In this document: positions 14,892 to 19,677 of the stretch, piece after piece | Layout: the number at the start of each line of letters is the position of its first letter | Numbering within the stretch: position 1 is the first letter of the stretch | NCBI GenBank assembly: GCA_001789205.1 | Contig: MFYT01000110.1 | Location: 1-19,726, forward strand | Length of the DNA stretch: 19,726 bases | Direction of reading: 5' to 3' | DNA from: Candidatus Raymondbacteria bacterium RIFOXYA2_FULL_49_16 | Lineage (GTDB): Bacteria; Fibrobacterota; OXYB2-FULL-49-7; XYB2-FULL-49-35 | Notes under the pieces: model-generated | The model's database searches: none | What the model was told of the DNA's origin: nothing | What the model saw: the letters and a program-made list of their open reading frames with translations, nothing else | Position numbers and translations under genes: made by a program

Positions 14892-15839
14892 TCAGTCTAC
14901 GATAAAATCATTGGGCAGAATATAGGTCTCAGGATCAATAGGATGCCGGTACTTTCGGACTTCATAATGCAGGTGCGGACCGGTTGAAAGCCCCGTGCTT
15001 CCCACATATCCGATGATTTCCCCCCGTTTCACATACCGTCCGTCAATCACTCCCGTGGCGCGCATGTGCGCGTAAATCGTGGTGAACTCGTTTCCATGGT
15101 CCAGGAACACATAGTTTCCATAGGTTTCTGAACGGCCGGTCTTGGCAACGCCCGCGGCCGACGCCCTGATGGGCGTGCCTTCAAAATTAGCGATATCAAC
15201 ACCCTCGTGCATGCGGGCTTCATGAAAAATAGGATGCGTGCGCACGCCAAATCCAGAGAGGAGCCAGCCGTTTATTGGCGCGATTGAGGGAACATGGTCC
15301 ATCCGGTATTTCTTGTCTTTCAGGTATCCGCTGAAATCAGTGAGACTATAGTCGTGAAAATCGTACTGGCGCAGGAGTTTATCAACGCGCTCCGCCAGAC
15401 GCCGCAGTTCGATCTCGTGCCGTGTGGCAAAGACCGACTCAATGTCGTCGTCCGTGGCTGGACCGCCAACGCCCACCTGCCGCACTTCATCACTAACAGC
15501 CACGGCGCCGTACATGGAGCGCCTGCAGTCGTCGTCTGAGAAAAGTCTGGTAATATACTCCTCCTGGGAGGAGACAAAGTCGCGCATCTCCCGTATTTCG
15601 CTCATTAGTCTGGTGTTTTTGCATTCGGAGAAAAACGTGACGCTTCTAGCGATGCCAAGAAAAAGTGCCAGGGAAGCAAGGAGAAGGTATCCGGCAACGG
15701 ACATACAGAGAACAGACTTGCAGCAGCGGATCAGGAAAGGCCTGGCGCGCAAGGTGCAGATTTTACCGCGTCCTTCGCACTGGACAACGATGTCATTAAG
15801 CGCTGCTCTCTTTTTTTTCACCATATCGCGTTGCCGCAT
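14892..15839 (-). CDS. Membrane-anchored M23/LytM metallopeptidase
   Basis: 315 aa peptidoglycan endopeptidase candidate. A basic cytoplasmic N-terminus precedes one membrane segment (about 44-66). A helical, probably coiled-coil region spans about 74-165, and the LytM domain fills 190-315. Zinc ligands by family analogy are His211 and Asp215 (MHEGVD) and His291 (HLHYEV), with catalytic His258 (IYAHM) and His289. All are present, so the enzyme should be active. The context 'GFGVRTHPIFHEARMHEGVDIA' is typical of the family. The start (ATG 15839, alternative ATG 15824) lies inside the upstream PAP2 gene, overlapping it by 44 or 29 nt, which indicates one transcript and translational coupling. 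No Shine-Dalgarno stands out. Convergent with the SPOR gene; both fit cell-wall remodelling. Confidence 0.9.
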   Translation of the reverse strand: MRQRDMVKKKRAALNDIVVQCEGRGKICTLRARPFLIRCCKSVLCMSVAGYLLLASLALFLGIARSVTFFSECKNTRLMSEIREMRDFVSSQEEYITRLFSDDDCRRSMYGAVAVSDEVRQVGVGGPATDDDIESVFATRHEIELRRLAERVDKLLRQYDFHDYSLTDFSGYLKDKKYRMDHVPSIAPINGWLLSGFGVRTHPIFHEARMHEGVDIANFEGTPIRASAAGVAKTGRSETYGNYVFLDHGNEFTTIYAHMRATGVIDGRYVKRGEIIGYVGSTGLSTGPHLHYEVRKYRHPIDPETYILPNDFIVD

Positions 15840-16377
15840 AGTTCACTGCTTTAAAAAAAACAAGACCAAGGATTGCTCCGGCAAGAGCCCCTGCCGCCAC
15901 ATCGCCGGGATAATGGACCCCGGTATAAATGCGCGAAAAAGACACAAGCGCTGCCAAGAAAGAAAAATATACCCTATATTTAGTATAAAGGGAAGAAAAA
16001 AATACAGCTTGAGCGAAAATATTGAAAGCGTGGGCCGAAGGGAAGGAATACGACCGGTACGTTCCTATAAGAAATCTGCCGCCTTCAACCAGGGCCGCCG
16101 GGTCGCACGGCCGCAGCCGCTTGAAAAACGGTTTGAGTACCCGGACGCACAACGGATCGCTTATCGCGATCAGCACCAGCGCGGCCGCAATGACCCAAAG
16201 CCCCTTCTTCTTTTCTTTCCTCAGGAAAAAAAAGAGGGCCACGAGCACCGGCGCTATCCAGTAGCGTCCATTGGTGATAATGGGGAAACATGCGTCAAAA
16301 ATAGGGTTTGCAATATCCCGATTGAGCGCCAAAAAGAGCGCCCTGTCCAGGTTTGCGAGATGGGCAAGAAAGGTCAT
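15796..16377 (-). CDS. PAP2-family phosphatase (lipid phosphate or undecaprenyl diphosphate phosphatase-like)
   Basis: 193 aa membrane protein with all three PAP2 motifs: Lys82-x6-Arg89-Pro90, PSAH (113-116, His116) and Ser148-Arg149-x5-His155-x3-Asp159. It should dephosphorylate a lipid (di)phosphate, for example a polyprenyl diphosphate, at the outer face of the inner membrane. Several hydrophobic segments span the protein. ATG 16377 is chosen over ATG 16413 because the shorter form starts with the common PAP2 beginning 'MTFLAHLANLDRALFLALN', and a TTGCAT-N17-TATCTT promoter ends just upstream and would lie inside the longer version. The resulting leader is only about five bases, so the mRNA may be nearly leaderless. 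The downstream LytM gene overlaps it. Divergent from a degenerate PAP2-like gene. Confidence 0.88.
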   Translation of the reverse strand: MTFLAHLANLDRALFLALNRDIANPIFDACFPIITNGRYWIAPVLVALFFFLRKEKKKGLWVIAAALVLIAISDPLCVRVLKPFFKRLRPCDPAALVEGGRFLIGTYRSYSFPSAHAFNIFAQAVFFSSLYTKYRVYFSFLAALVSFSRIYTGVHYPGDVAAGALAGAILGLVFFKAVNYAATRYGEKKESSA

Positions 16378-16388
16378 TTTCAGGAAAT

Positions 16389-16417
16389 AAGATATGTTAT
16401 GGGCGGTCGGCATGCAA
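16389..16417 (-). promoter_or_regulatory. Predicted promoter of the PAP2-LytM operon
   Basis: On the minus strand TTGCAT (16417-16412), 17 nt, TATCTT (16394-16389). Same -35 hexamer and spacing as the promoters at 2689-2717 and 10691-10719, with one base different in the -10. It supports the downstream start codon at 16377. Confidence 0.5.
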
Positions 16418-16432
16418 TTATATTTATTGTAC

Positions 16433-17116
16433 GTGGGAACGCGAACACTCCGTCAGGTGAGTCTCATTTCCGTGTGTATGTTTTGCCTGAACGCGCACTG
16501 CGCCGCGGCCGTTCCGGGCATTGACGCACGGGTATTTTATGCCATTAACAGCACCCGCAACACCTTTTTCAACGGCGCGTCACTTGTTCTCTACGATGCG
16601 GTGTGGCTGTCGCCTGTTCTCTATACGTATTCGCTCGGATACGGCCATTTCAAACAGGACGAGGGCGCCCGGACCTTTGGAAAAATCGGTCTTGCCTCAA
16701 CCGCCTCCTCTCTGGTTCTGGTGCAGACCATGAAATACGTTGTCCAACGGGAACGTCCCGCAGTGTCGCTTCGTCATGTGCGCGGCAGCTATGCTCCCGG
16801 CCTGCTCGCGTTTCTTCTCCCCCCTGAAAAATATTCGTGCCCCTCACAAACAGCCGCGCTTGCGGCATCGCAGGCAATTGTCTGGGGAACAGCCTATCCT
16901 GACTGGCAGCGCTGGCTGGTGGCGCTTGCGCTGCTCAACGGCTGGGCAGGCATATACGAAGGCGCCGACTATCCCCTCGACGTTGTTGCCGGATACGCCG
17001 TTGGCGCAGGATCTGCCTTTGCCGCCATGGCGCTCATGAAAACATACAGTCCCAAGCTCGATATCAGGAACGCATCGGTTCGCGCCCCTATCATTATTAT
17101 TACACGGAATTTTTAA
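16433..17116 (+). CDS. PAP2-like protein with missing catalytic residues (putative pseudoenzyme)
   Basis: About 227 aa from GTG 16433; ATG 16394 or 16412 would extend it. GTG is preferred because it opens a plausible signal peptide (MGTRTLRQ, hydrophobic stretch, cleavage near AHCAAA), although no Shine-Dalgarno supports any start. Motif 1 is intact: Lys101-x6-Arg108-Pro109. Motif 2 reads PSQT (137-140) where active enzymes have PS(G/A)H. Motif 3 reads A172-G-x5-D179-x3-D183 in place of S-R-x5-H-x3-D. Thus both catalytic histidines and the motif-3 arginine are gone while the spacing and flanking residues (IY.G..YP.DV.AG) persist. The fold is probably kept, but phosphatase activity is unlikely; it may bind a lipid phosphate. 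It is divergent from an intact PAP2 gene and lies 13 bp before the next gene, so it is likely the first gene of an operon. Confidence 0.78.
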   Translation: MGTRTLRQVSLISVCMFCLNAHCAAAVPGIDARVFYAINSTRNTFFNGASLVLYDAVWLSPVLYTYSLGYGHFKQDEGARTFGKIGLASTASSLVLVQTMKYVVQRERPAVSLRHVRGSYAPGLLAFLLPPEKYSCPSQTAALAASQAIVWGTAYPDWQRWLVALALLNGWAGIYEGADYPLDVVAGYAVGAGSAFAAMALMKTYSPKLDIRNASVRAPIIIITRNF

Positions 17117-17129
17117 TTAAGGAATTGCC

Positions 17130-17756
17130 ATGATCCAGAAAAATCCCTATCTTCTTCCGGGCATTGCCCTCGCCGTACTCGTTGTCCTCTTTGTTTTCCA
17201 AAGCAAACAGCAAAAAAAAGGTCCTGTTGCGGCCAAAGCACAGGAGGTTCGCCGCATGGTCTGTGTGATGGACAACGACGGCGATAGCCTGGTCTGGAAG
17301 GGGACCTTCTTTCCCTGCGGTGCGGACAAGAGCGCGCGTGCCGGCGCTCTCATCCCCGGCCCGTTTTCCGAAGGCGCGTTTGAATTCGACATCTTTTCAC
17401 TGGGAGCGCATCCTGGCATGCTCGCGGGCCTGTGCGATACCGCGAACGACCCCTGCGCCAACGGAGGAACGCTCTTTGCCATTGCGGCAACAGACCAGGG
17501 AACAACTCTCTCTCTTTCCGCTCAGGGAGTGTCGATTAAAACTCCGCTTGCTCCTATCACGGTCCCGGTACGCGTGGTGTGCGAATGGCGCGGCAAAGAA
17601 GCGGTGCTGTATATAAACGGAATCAGGGAGGGTACGCTTGCCCTGTCCCGGCCGCTGGAGGAAACAGACGCGCTCTTTTTTTGCGCGCTGCCCGACACCG
17701 GATCCGGCCAGACCGGGCCCGTGGTACGCTCTCTAAAACTTTTCTTGAATCGGTAA
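17130..17756 (+). CDS. Membrane-anchored protein of unknown function, possibly a beta-sandwich (LamG/concanavalin-like) domain
   Basis: 208 aa. One N-terminal membrane segment (about 8-24) is followed by a basic Lys/Gln stretch, so the body is probably periplasmic. The remainder (about 40-208) is beta-rich with five cysteines. 'VRVVCEWRGKEAVLYINGIREGTLAL' near 150-176 resembles the strand pair seen in LamG/concanavalin-type folds, but I cannot assign a family. The start has AAGGA (17119-17123) six bases upstream and lies 13 bp after the PAP2-like gene, so the two are probably cotranscribed. A diverged copy of its 3' end (the DTGSGQTGPVVRSL region, 17694-17737) occurs again at 18577-18620, beyond the MNT-HEPN pair. 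That suggests it once had a tandem paralog. Confidence 0.7.
   Translation: MIQKNPYLLPGIALAVLVVLFVFQSKQQKKGPVAAKAQEVRRMVCVMDNDGDSLVWKGTFFPCGADKSARAGALIPGPFSEGAFEFDIFSLGAHPGMLAGLCDTANDPCANGGTLFAIAATDQGTTLSLSAQGVSIKTPLAPITVPVRVVCEWRGKEAVLYINGIREGTLALSRPLEETDALFFCALPDTGSGQTGPVVRSLKLFLNR
17694..17737 (+). repeat. Left copy of a 44 bp direct repeat flanking the MNT-HEPN pair
   Basis: This segment in the 3' end of the membrane-anchored gene matches 18577-18620 at 37 of 44 positions without gaps. Both copies keep the same reading frame (DT..GQ.GPVVRSL). The MNT-HEPN genes lie entirely between the copies. Confidence 0.85.
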
Positions 17757-17857: not shown

Positions 17858-18172
17858 ATGAATAATAATCTGGCAAAAGAAAAAATTCATGAGGTTGTGA
17901 AAAACAACATAGTGACGTCACAAATCATCCTTTTTGGTTCGCAGGCGCGTGGAACCAGCGGACCAAACAGCGATTATGACGTCCTTGTGATTACACCCTT
18001 AAAACTTACCCCCCATGAAAAACTGCCGTATAAAACAATCATACGGAAGCAGTTATTGACGATGGGGATTTTTTCCGATATTCTTATACAGCATGAAGAT
18101 GAAGTAGTGGCAAAAAATGAACTTCCCGGTCATATTGTTAGGCGAGCGATGGAAGAAGGTATTGCCATATGA
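17858..18172 (+). CDS. MNT-type nucleotidyltransferase (antitoxin-like, MntA family)
   Basis: 104 aa minimal nucleotidyltransferase of the DNA polymerase beta superfamily. The signature GSQARG (27-32) followed by SDYDV (38-42) gives metal-binding Asp39 and Asp41, and 'FSDILI' provides a third acid, Asp74; all three are present, so catalysis is possible. In characterised MntA-HepT pairs such proteins transfer AMP to the HEPN partner and neutralise it. Its stop overlaps the HEPN start by four bases (ATGA), giving tight coupling. It has its own predicted promoter. The gene is visibly more AT-rich than the genes to its left, suggesting recent acquisition. Role as antitoxin is inferred from family and partner only. 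Confidence 0.88.
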   Translation: MNNNLAKEKIHEVVKNNIVTSQIILFGSQARGTSGPNSDYDVLVITPLKLTPHEKLPYKTIIRKQLLTMGIFSDILIQHEDEVVAKNELPGHIVRRAMEEGIAI

Positions 18173-18567
18173 CAGAACCAATCCGGGAATACGTTACCCA
18201 ATGGCTTATAAAAGCCAATGAAGATATTGCCGTAATTGAACGATTGTTTTTATCCAAGCCTGAAGAGGTGACGGGTGCCATCTGCTTTCATTCTCAGCAA
18301 GCTGTTGAGAAATTTCTCAAAGCCTTCCTTGCTTCCAGGAAGAATGATTTCAGACCAACCCATGACGTTGATTTTCTTCTGAGCGAATGTGTTAAAATAG
18401 ACCAAGCAGCTTTTTTAGGATTGGATCTGAAAAGCCTGGCTGATTTCGCTGTCAATGTCCGCTATCCTGACGATTTTTTTGTTCCTGAAATGGATGAGGC
18501 ACTCTCGTGTTCGGAATTGGCAAAAACAGTTAAAAAAATTGTCGAAAAAACTATCCCATTTGTTTAA
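18169..18567 (+). CDS. HEPN-domain protein, partner of the MNT nucleotidyltransferase
   Basis: 132 aa, all-helical HEPN domain: 'QWLIKANEDIAVIERL' helix 1, 'CFHSQQAVEKFLKAFL' (39-54) helix 2, 'RPTHDVDFLL' (62-71), and an ARYPD-like 'VRYPDDFF' (97-104). In toxin-type HEPNs an R-x4-6-H motif cleaves RNA. Here the only nearby arrangement is Arg57/Arg62 with His65, spacings of seven or two, so the canonical RNase motif and the RX4HXY AMPylation site are not recognisable. It could be a non-toxic HEPN of the older HEPN/MNT class or use different residues. Start ATG overlaps the MNT stop. Nine bases after its stop the remnant of a neighbouring gene begins. Confidence 0.85.
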   Translation: MTEPIREYVTQWLIKANEDIAVIERLFLSKPEEVTGAICFHSQQAVEKFLKAFLASRKNDFRPTHDVDFLLSECVKIDQAAFLGLDLKSLADFAVNVRYPDDFFVPEMDEALSCSELAKTVKKIVEKTIPFV

Positions 18568-18576
18568 AAATCTGAT

Positions 18577-18645
18577 GACACCAGTGCCGGCCAGATCGGG
18601 CCCGTGGTGCGCTCGTTAAATGATGCCCCTGACAGCTGGGTCTGA
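18577..18645 (+). pseudogene. 3' remnant of a paralog of the membrane-anchored gene at 17130-17756
   Basis: Read in frame from 18577 it encodes DTSAGQIGPVVRSL followed by a short unrelated tail and TGA at 18643-18645. The first 14 codons correspond to the C-terminal DTGSGQTGPVVRSL of the upstream gene: 44 aligned bases, 37 identical. Differences include synonymous third positions (GTA/GTG, TCT/TCG, CTA/TTA), as expected for an old coding paralog rather than a fresh duplication. No start codon or gene body is left; the MNT-HEPN pair occupies that place. Confidence 0.65.
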
Positions 18646-18650
18646 AATGT

Positions 18651-18670
18651 CTGCGCGGGAAAGCGCGCAG
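18651..18670 (+). other. GC-rich hairpin at the start of the transposase gene
   Basis: A perfect 7 bp stem, CTGCGCG (18651-18657) and CGCGCAG (18664-18670), has a GGAAAG loop. Its last base is the first base of the transposase GTG codon. Subterminal hairpins are a known feature of IS91-type ends, so this may mark the element's 5' (ter) end; alternatively it limits translation of the transposase. Confidence 0.55.
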
Positions 18671-19677
18671 TGCCATGTGAAGTAACCCAGGTCGTACAAA
18701 AAGTTTACCATCCCCGCGAACACGATAGCTCCCCTTTCTTCAAAGTCATAACCAGCCATTTTGAGGCATTTGAAAGGCTGTATCCGGAGAGGTTTCAGGG
18801 AAAGTACGGCTTCTGGCGTCCAGTAATACGTTCGTCCCTCGATAAGTTCCTGAAATGCGGGGACCTGAAAGAAGGCTTTGCCCGCGTCCGCTGTCCTGAT
18901 TGCGGCGAGGAATTCTTCGTAGCCTATTCCTGCCGCCAGAGGTCTTGCTGTCCCTCCTGCGACCAGAAACGGGCTCTTTTACTGGGTATCCGGCTTGCAG
19001 AAGTAATTCTTGCACCCATCCCCCACCGGCAATGGGTCTTCACAATCCCCAAGCGGCTGCGCATCTATTTCCGGTTTGATCGTTCATTGCTTGGCAAGCT
19101 CTGCCGGTCAGCGTATGAAACGGTTCGCGAGGCTTTGGCTGCCGAAACAGGTGATGATATTGTGTCGCCCGGCATGATTGCAACCGTACAGACTTTTGGC
19201 GATCTAATTCACTGGAATGCGCATATACATGCGCTCGTATCTGAGGGCGGGTTTACCGAGAACGGCCATTTTGTGCGTGTGCCGGAAATGGATAAGGCCT
19301 ATTACCTTTCCTTGTGGCAAGACAAGGTTTTCGACCTGCTGATGCGCGAGGAGAAGATAAGCGAGGATGTTGTCCGGGACATGCGCACGTGGAAACATTC
19401 GGGTTTCAGCATTGATTGCAGCGTTAAAATAGCGGCGGGCGATAGCGAATCAATCAAGCGCCTTGCGCAATACATTGGCCGCTGTCCATTCAGCCTTGCC
19501 AGAATCATCAGCATAGACCAGGACGAGATAATTGAGCGTATCCTGAAGCACTGTGGCCTCTGGAAAGACCCGCTTCGCTCTCGCGAAAGCGAGGCGAGAT
19601 CTCAGCCAAGACCGCCGCCCGAAATCTGCGTTAAGTTCCCCGCCCTCGAAGAACCGTTGCCCGATTACTTGTGCTGA
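18670..19677 (+). CDS. IS91-family transposase, internally shortened
   Basis: 335 aa rolling-circle (HUH) transposase. The N-terminal zinc-binding domain carries the Cys cluster RCPDC (75-78), SC (88) and CCPSC (93-97). The catalytic HUH motif is HIH (185-187) in 'FGDLIHWNAHIHALVSEGGF'. A candidate nucleophile is Tyr268 in 'LAQYIGRCPFSLARI'. Directly after SLARI (about residue 279) the sequence jumps to 'ISIDQDEIIERILKHCGLW', which in full-length relatives sits near the C-terminus after 'MRIISFI'. Roughly 100 residues that normally lie between appear missing without a frameshift, against a usual length of about 400 or more. The element is probably inactive. The start is GTG; no ATG is available until residue 169. 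A proline-rich tail ends the protein. The right end of the element is not resolved; 19678-19726 shows nothing recognisable. Confidence 0.85.
   Translation: MPCEVTQVVQKVYHPREHDSSPFFKVITSHFEAFERLYPERFQGKYGFWRPVIRSSLDKFLKCGDLKEGFARVRCPDCGEEFFVAYSCRQRSCCPSCDQKRALLLGIRLAEVILAPIPHRQWVFTIPKRLRIYFRFDRSLLGKLCRSAYETVREALAAETGDDIVSPGMIATVQTFGDLIHWNAHIHALVSEGGFTENGHFVRVPEMDKAYYLSLWQDKVFDLLMREEKISEDVVRDMRTWKHSGFSIDCSVKIAAGDSESIKRLAQYIGRCPFSLARIISIDQDEIIERILKHCGLWKDPLRSRESEARSQPRPPPEICVKFPALEEPLPDYLC
19575..19597. other. Hairpin with GAAA loop inside the transposase gene
   Basis: TCGC-T-CTCGC (19575-19584) and GCGAGGCGA (19589-19597) pair over nine base pairs with one bulged T around a GAAA tetraloop. It encodes the low-complexity RSRESEARS tail segment of the transposase. 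It may be a small palindromic insertion or chance. Confidence 0.45.

Follow-up and report, generated by a model that had tools for sequence, protein, structure and literature searches.

The gene at 16433-17116 of the window, by which we mean the whole stretch of 19,726 nucleotides that was analysed (all of contig C110), probably encodes a retained PAP2 pseudoenzyme, a candidate that we know from a single case. The earlier note had proposed a pseudoenzyme from the sequence, and this reading proved correct at the level of a candidate: residues that are central to PAP2 catalysis are lost within a PAP2 fold, and the reading frame is intact and natively coded. In bacteria, the lipid carrier used in cell-wall synthesis is recycled by PAP2 proteins, and stimulation of a cell-wall synthase in vitro has already been seen with an inactive PgpB mutant. 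A naturally inactive protein of this fold would be a test case for its non-catalytic roles in bacteria, although a singleton for which no orthologues were found does not amount to a family and serves as a lead.

Fold and catalytic motifs

The protein is 227 residues long when read from the GTG at 16433, and at most 240 when read from an ATG at 16394. The ATG has AGGA upstream, whereas the GTG yields the more classical signal peptide. Hydropathy peaks at residues 9-27 (numbered from the GTG), and alignment together with hydropathy places a predicted signal ahead of an IDxxxF helix; this signal-like segment is absent from the intact PAP2 phosphatase encoded next to the gene (Table 1). The Pfam PAP2 family matched the protein with 40.4 bits (3e-10), above the cut-off of 27.2 bits, and NCBIfam returned sub-threshold similarity to undecaprenyl-diphosphatases and nothing else. 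A sequence search of the PDB gave no match. For the fold we used an AlphaFold2 model, built from a 31-row alignment of PAP2 homologues, with a pLDDT of 77.9 overall and 87-96 around motifs C2 and C3. Compared by Foldseek and VIA-align, the model resembled Aquifex LpxE (6ebu; Z 18.6, 2.8 Å over 154 residues) and B. subtilis PgpB (5jki; Z 17.6, 3.1 Å over 168), followed by other PAP2 and vanadium haloperoxidase entries. Since the alignment behind the model consists of PAP2 homologues, this match is partly expected. The structure prediction called for in the earlier note thus points to a PAP2 helical core, and the family match and the predicted fold agree with its description of a PAP2-like protein at this place.

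Table 1. Positions of the candidate, its motifs and the neighbouring genes in the window.
Feature	Positions	Strand	Basis
M23 peptidase, 44-nt overlap with the 3' end of the intact PAP2 gene (envelope context)	14892..15839	-	Pfam Peptidase_M23 5.7e-31
Intact PAP2 phosphatase (start probably 16377), divergently transcribed	15796..16413	-	Pfam PAP2 2e-19; PAP2 clade of the phylum
PAP2-fold pseudoenzyme candidate	16433..17116	+	Pfam PF01569, AlphaFold2 model, PDB matches 6ebu, 5jki
N-terminal signal-peptide-like segment, RTLRQ-VSLISVCMFCLNA-HCAAA	16433..16516	+	Sequence reading, hydropathy, Bacteroidota alignment
Motif C1 KYVVQRERP, kept (K101, R106, R108, P109)	16733..16759	+	Translation, conservation alignment
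Motif C2 PSQT (residues 137-140; CCC TCA CAA ACA), His to Thr	16841..16852	+	Alignment
Motif C3 WAGIYEGADYPLD (residues 171-183), Ser to Ala, Arg to Gly, nucleophilic His to Asp, last Asp kept	16943..16981	+	Alignment
Downstream orphan protein, N-terminal membrane anchor and probable beta-rich domain	17130..17756	+	Sequence reading, single-sequence model

Of the three PAP2 signatures only the first is matched. The C1 consensus KxxxxxxRP is preserved, as the earlier note had it, whereas C2 (PSxH) reads PSQT and C3 (SRxxxxxHxxxD, with the nucleophilic histidine) reads AGIYEGADYPLD. Alignment with 128 PAP2 homologues, also suggested in that note, bore out its claim that both catalytic histidines and the motif-3 arginine are gone: the C3 histidine and the C3 arginine are present in 128/128 homologues and the C2 histidine in 127/128, where the candidate has Asp, Gly and Thr, respectively. 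The three residues lost belong to the eight most conserved functional positions; the other five, namely the lysine, arginine and proline of C1, the serine of C2 and the last aspartate of C3, are unchanged. Nearly all structural Gly, Pro, Tyr and Asp positions are retained in the same alignment, and four moderately conserved non-catalytic positions are also altered. The motif-3 pattern had itself retrieved 71 of the 128 loci, so the conservation of C3 is independent evidence only in the remaining ones, where there were no exceptions either; about 30 additional relatives outside the alignment all carried the His and Arg residues. Among the roughly 160 relatives inspected, the sole other protein lacking the C2 histidine was a PAP2-like protein of a Dehalococcoidia bacterium (L072). 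The claim that all motif spacings are kept held within the motifs and from C2 to C3 (34 residues, as in the intact neighbour), but not from C1 to C2, where the candidate is five residues longer (36 vs 31).

How these losses would affect catalysis may be judged from E. coli PgpB. There, activity falls below detection in the C3 histidine mutant H207A, whereas H163A (C2 His) and R201A (C3 Arg) retain 27% and 25% of the activity on C55-PP and under 0.5% of that on PGP (PMC7413402). Because the latter two mutants keep about a quarter of the C55-PP activity, loss of the C2 histidine and the C3 arginine alone would not predict an inactive protein, and the replacement of the nucleophile by aspartate is the decisive change. 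By analogy to these mutants, we consider it well grounded that the candidate would have no PAP2 phosphatase activity, as no phospho-histidine could form without its nucleophile. An aspartate in this place might conceivably serve as the nucleophile instead.

Coding integrity and distribution

The frame is open across all 227 codons, although about 3.5% of random substitutions in it would create a stop and a median of 21 substitutions would bring the first one. With a codon model built from the other genes of the window, the frame scored 0.193 and none of the other five exceeded -0.01, which agrees with the open reading frame described in the earlier note. Few genes in the window have a codon usage as native as this one (synonymous codon score 0.137, with 0.140 for fumA and 0.035 for the intact PAP2 gene). 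The open frame and the native codon usage make a sequence error or an old decay unlikely; these statistics do not gauge selection after the catalytic loss, which may be recent enough that decay does not show. The assembly is estimated to be 100% complete with 0.63% contamination.

Orthologues with the same losses, which the earlier note had proposed to look for, were found in none of the over 1,100 genomes searched. These comprised 167 genomes of the phylum, screened by sequence and by subfamily profile, and nearly 1,000 from other phyla (82 of a KSB1 phylum, 395 of Bacteroidota, 17 of Zixibacteria, 249 of Gemmatimonadota and 245 of Marinimicrobia, with phylum names taken from locus titles). 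Genome contigs, viral contigs, phages and plasmids likewise yielded none, the second scan of genome contigs having used a pattern with a canonical motif 3 that is blind to sequences with these losses. The genome searches, within the phylum and outside it, returned PAP2 proteins only, and the members inspected were canonical. The host genome was the only member of its family among the genomes searched. In the literature that we searched, no natural PAP2 pseudoenzyme of a bacterium was described.

Origin and genomic neighbourhood

An intact PAP2 phosphatase is indeed encoded back to back with the candidate, as the earlier note had stated. It carries the motifs KPFFKRLRP, PSAH and SRIYTGVHYPGD, and it groups with the common PAP2 clade of the phylum in trees and by profile scores. 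The implied pairing of the two proteins did not fare as well. The candidate scored 91 bits with the profile of a signal-peptide-bearing Bacteroidota PAP2 subfamily vs 58 with that of the phylum, while the intact neighbour scored 73 vs 243. The 91 bits are the best score of the candidate among five subfamily profiles, but members of that subfamily all scored higher when left out of their own profile (140-304). The candidate and the Bacteroidota subfamily also share the wording around RERP...EKYSxPS, and the core of the candidate is less hydrophobic than that of 126 of 129 relatives. In the trees, which carry warnings at the placement of the candidate, it was not the sister of the intact PAP2, and its terminal branch was very long (2.1-2.9 changes per site); however, a sister relation was not rejected by the AU test (p 0.22). 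Because the two proteins score best in different subfamilies, the candidate is probably no copy of its neighbour, and we favour an independent origin. A recent tandem duplication of the intact gene was considered and is disfavoured by the trees and the profile scores, the AU test not rejecting a sister position.

The genome encodes a third PAP2 protein on contig C39, with the motifs YSGH and R-x5-H-x3-D and a C terminus ending in SF. A short C-terminal strand with a terminal Phe, resembling an outer-membrane beta-signal, is found in the candidate (17096-17116), in signal-peptide PAP2 proteins and in this third PAP2 (loci L125, L128, L129, L126, L131 and L031).

Downstream, a gap of 13 nt separates the stop codon of the candidate from the next ATG, which is preceded by AAGGA. 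This spacing and the putative ribosome-binding site suggest an operon of the two genes, in line with the operonic arrangement with an anchored protein proposed previously. The downstream protein had no match in Pfam or NCBIfam and no homologue in the 167 genomes of the phylum, and its PDB sequence matches were at chance level only. A low-confidence single-sequence model (pLDDT 45) places a helix at residues 8-27, followed by strands. No promoter consensus site was detected in the divergent region between the two PAP2 genes.

Further along the plus strand, a nucleotidyltransferase gene (MNT, GSQARG...DYDVLV) and a HEPN gene overlap by 4 nt (17858-18567). Their GC3 is 0.36-0.39 vs about 0.6 in the neighbours, and they are a probable horizontally acquired, toxin-antitoxin-like pair. 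The pair is flanked by a 44-nt direct repeat (17694-17737 and 18577-18620, 84% identical) that duplicates the 3' end of the downstream gene on its far side, as though the insertion of the pair had left another copy of this end behind. The contig ends with an IS91-type transposase gene (Zn_Tnp_IS91 and Y2_Tnp; 18670-19677, plus strand).

Candidate functions and known systems

In our estimate the chances are about even that the candidate is an exported or inner-membrane PAP2-fold protein whose chemistry is lost and which is kept as a non-catalytic scaffold of the envelope, together with the downstream anchored protein. A protein of this kind, closest to the signal-peptide-bearing subfamily, would have lost PAP2 chemistry with its nucleophile. 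It may then, and this we hold with less confidence, have been retained as an envelope protein with a binding or scaffolding role. Gene order and precedent suggest that it could act with the protein encoded just downstream. Such a role would parallel that of PgpB(D211E), an inactive mutant that retains its stimulation of PBP1B in membranes (PMC6053597). We propose a scaffold or binding protein because of this precedent and that of the eukaryotic PLPPRs, PAP2 relatives that are non-catalytic and modulate signalling by lipid phosphates (PMC9520309), and because phosphate sensing is disfavoured.

The strongest competitor, to which we attach about half that weight, is that a former signal-peptide PAP2 phosphatase was recently inactivated and now evolves under relaxed selection, with no function. 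The single copy with no orthologue sharing its losses in the genomes searched, the long terminal branch and the four altered non-catalytic positions all speak for such a history. It sits less easily with a frame still open over 227 codons, in which a median of 21 random substitutions would bring a stop, with native codon usage, with the near-complete retention of structural positions and with a gene preceded by a ribosome-binding site 13 nt downstream. That an ordinary PAP2 was turned into this sequence by sequencing or assembly error is very improbable: the gene is present in one genome only, as an error would be, but at least five wrong codons would be needed in two separate motifs, all of them in-frame substitutions and never a frameshift, despite the assembly quality given above.

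The earlier note had suggested a sensor of lipid phosphates, or a regulator of the intact PAP2, and this we consider rather unlikely. The adjacency and divergent orientation of the two genes would suit it, as would the PLPPR precedent and the retention of R108 and S138, two phosphate-holding residues. Indeed, the tight binding of phosphate by the nucleophile-less PgpB H207A was ascribed to R104, S161 and R201 (PMC7413402). However, the equivalent of R201, the third of these residues, is Gly in the candidate and an Asp is added in the pocket at the nucleophile position, which weakens the case for sensing. As for regulation, nothing was found that links the candidate to its neighbour: their best profile scores fall in different subfamilies, and no conserved pairing was seen elsewhere. 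It is more doubtful still that D179 has joined D183, K101, R108 and S138 in a new site for catalysis or for binding a metal or cation, for example that of an Asp-nucleophile phosphotransferase. The replacement is chemically competent, and C1, the C2 serine and the C3 aspartate are kept beyond what a mere scaffold needs; but the C2 histidine and the C3 arginine are gone as well, the arrangement is conserved in no relatives, and no PAP2 with an Asp nucleophile was found in the literature searched.

Among known proteins, the signal-peptide PAP2 proteins of Bacteroidota (L125, L128, L129 and L126) share with the candidate the N-terminal signal-like segment, the R(E/D)RP...KYSxPS wording, a modest hydropathy and the C-terminal Phe ending; unlike it, they keep both histidines and the arginine, and identity is only 25-30%. 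LpxE and B. subtilis PgpB share its fold, the C1 motif, the C2 serine and the C3 aspartate, whereas the nucleophilic histidine, the C2 histidine and the C3 arginine are lost in the candidate. The Dehalococcoidia protein (PANTAAM; L072:2853-3435) likewise lacks the C2 histidine within a similar Q/N-TAA wording, but its SR...H...D motif is intact and its C1 lysine is lost, an independent and partial loss. Another parallel is given by the animal PLPPR/PRG proteins, PAP2-family members with substituted catalytic and phosphate-binding residues that are judged non-catalytic (PMC9520309); these are eukaryotic and have cytosolic C-terminal domains, unlike the protein described here. PAP2-family pseudoenzymes are thus already known in animals, and the present gene adds a bacterial candidate, as a single case.
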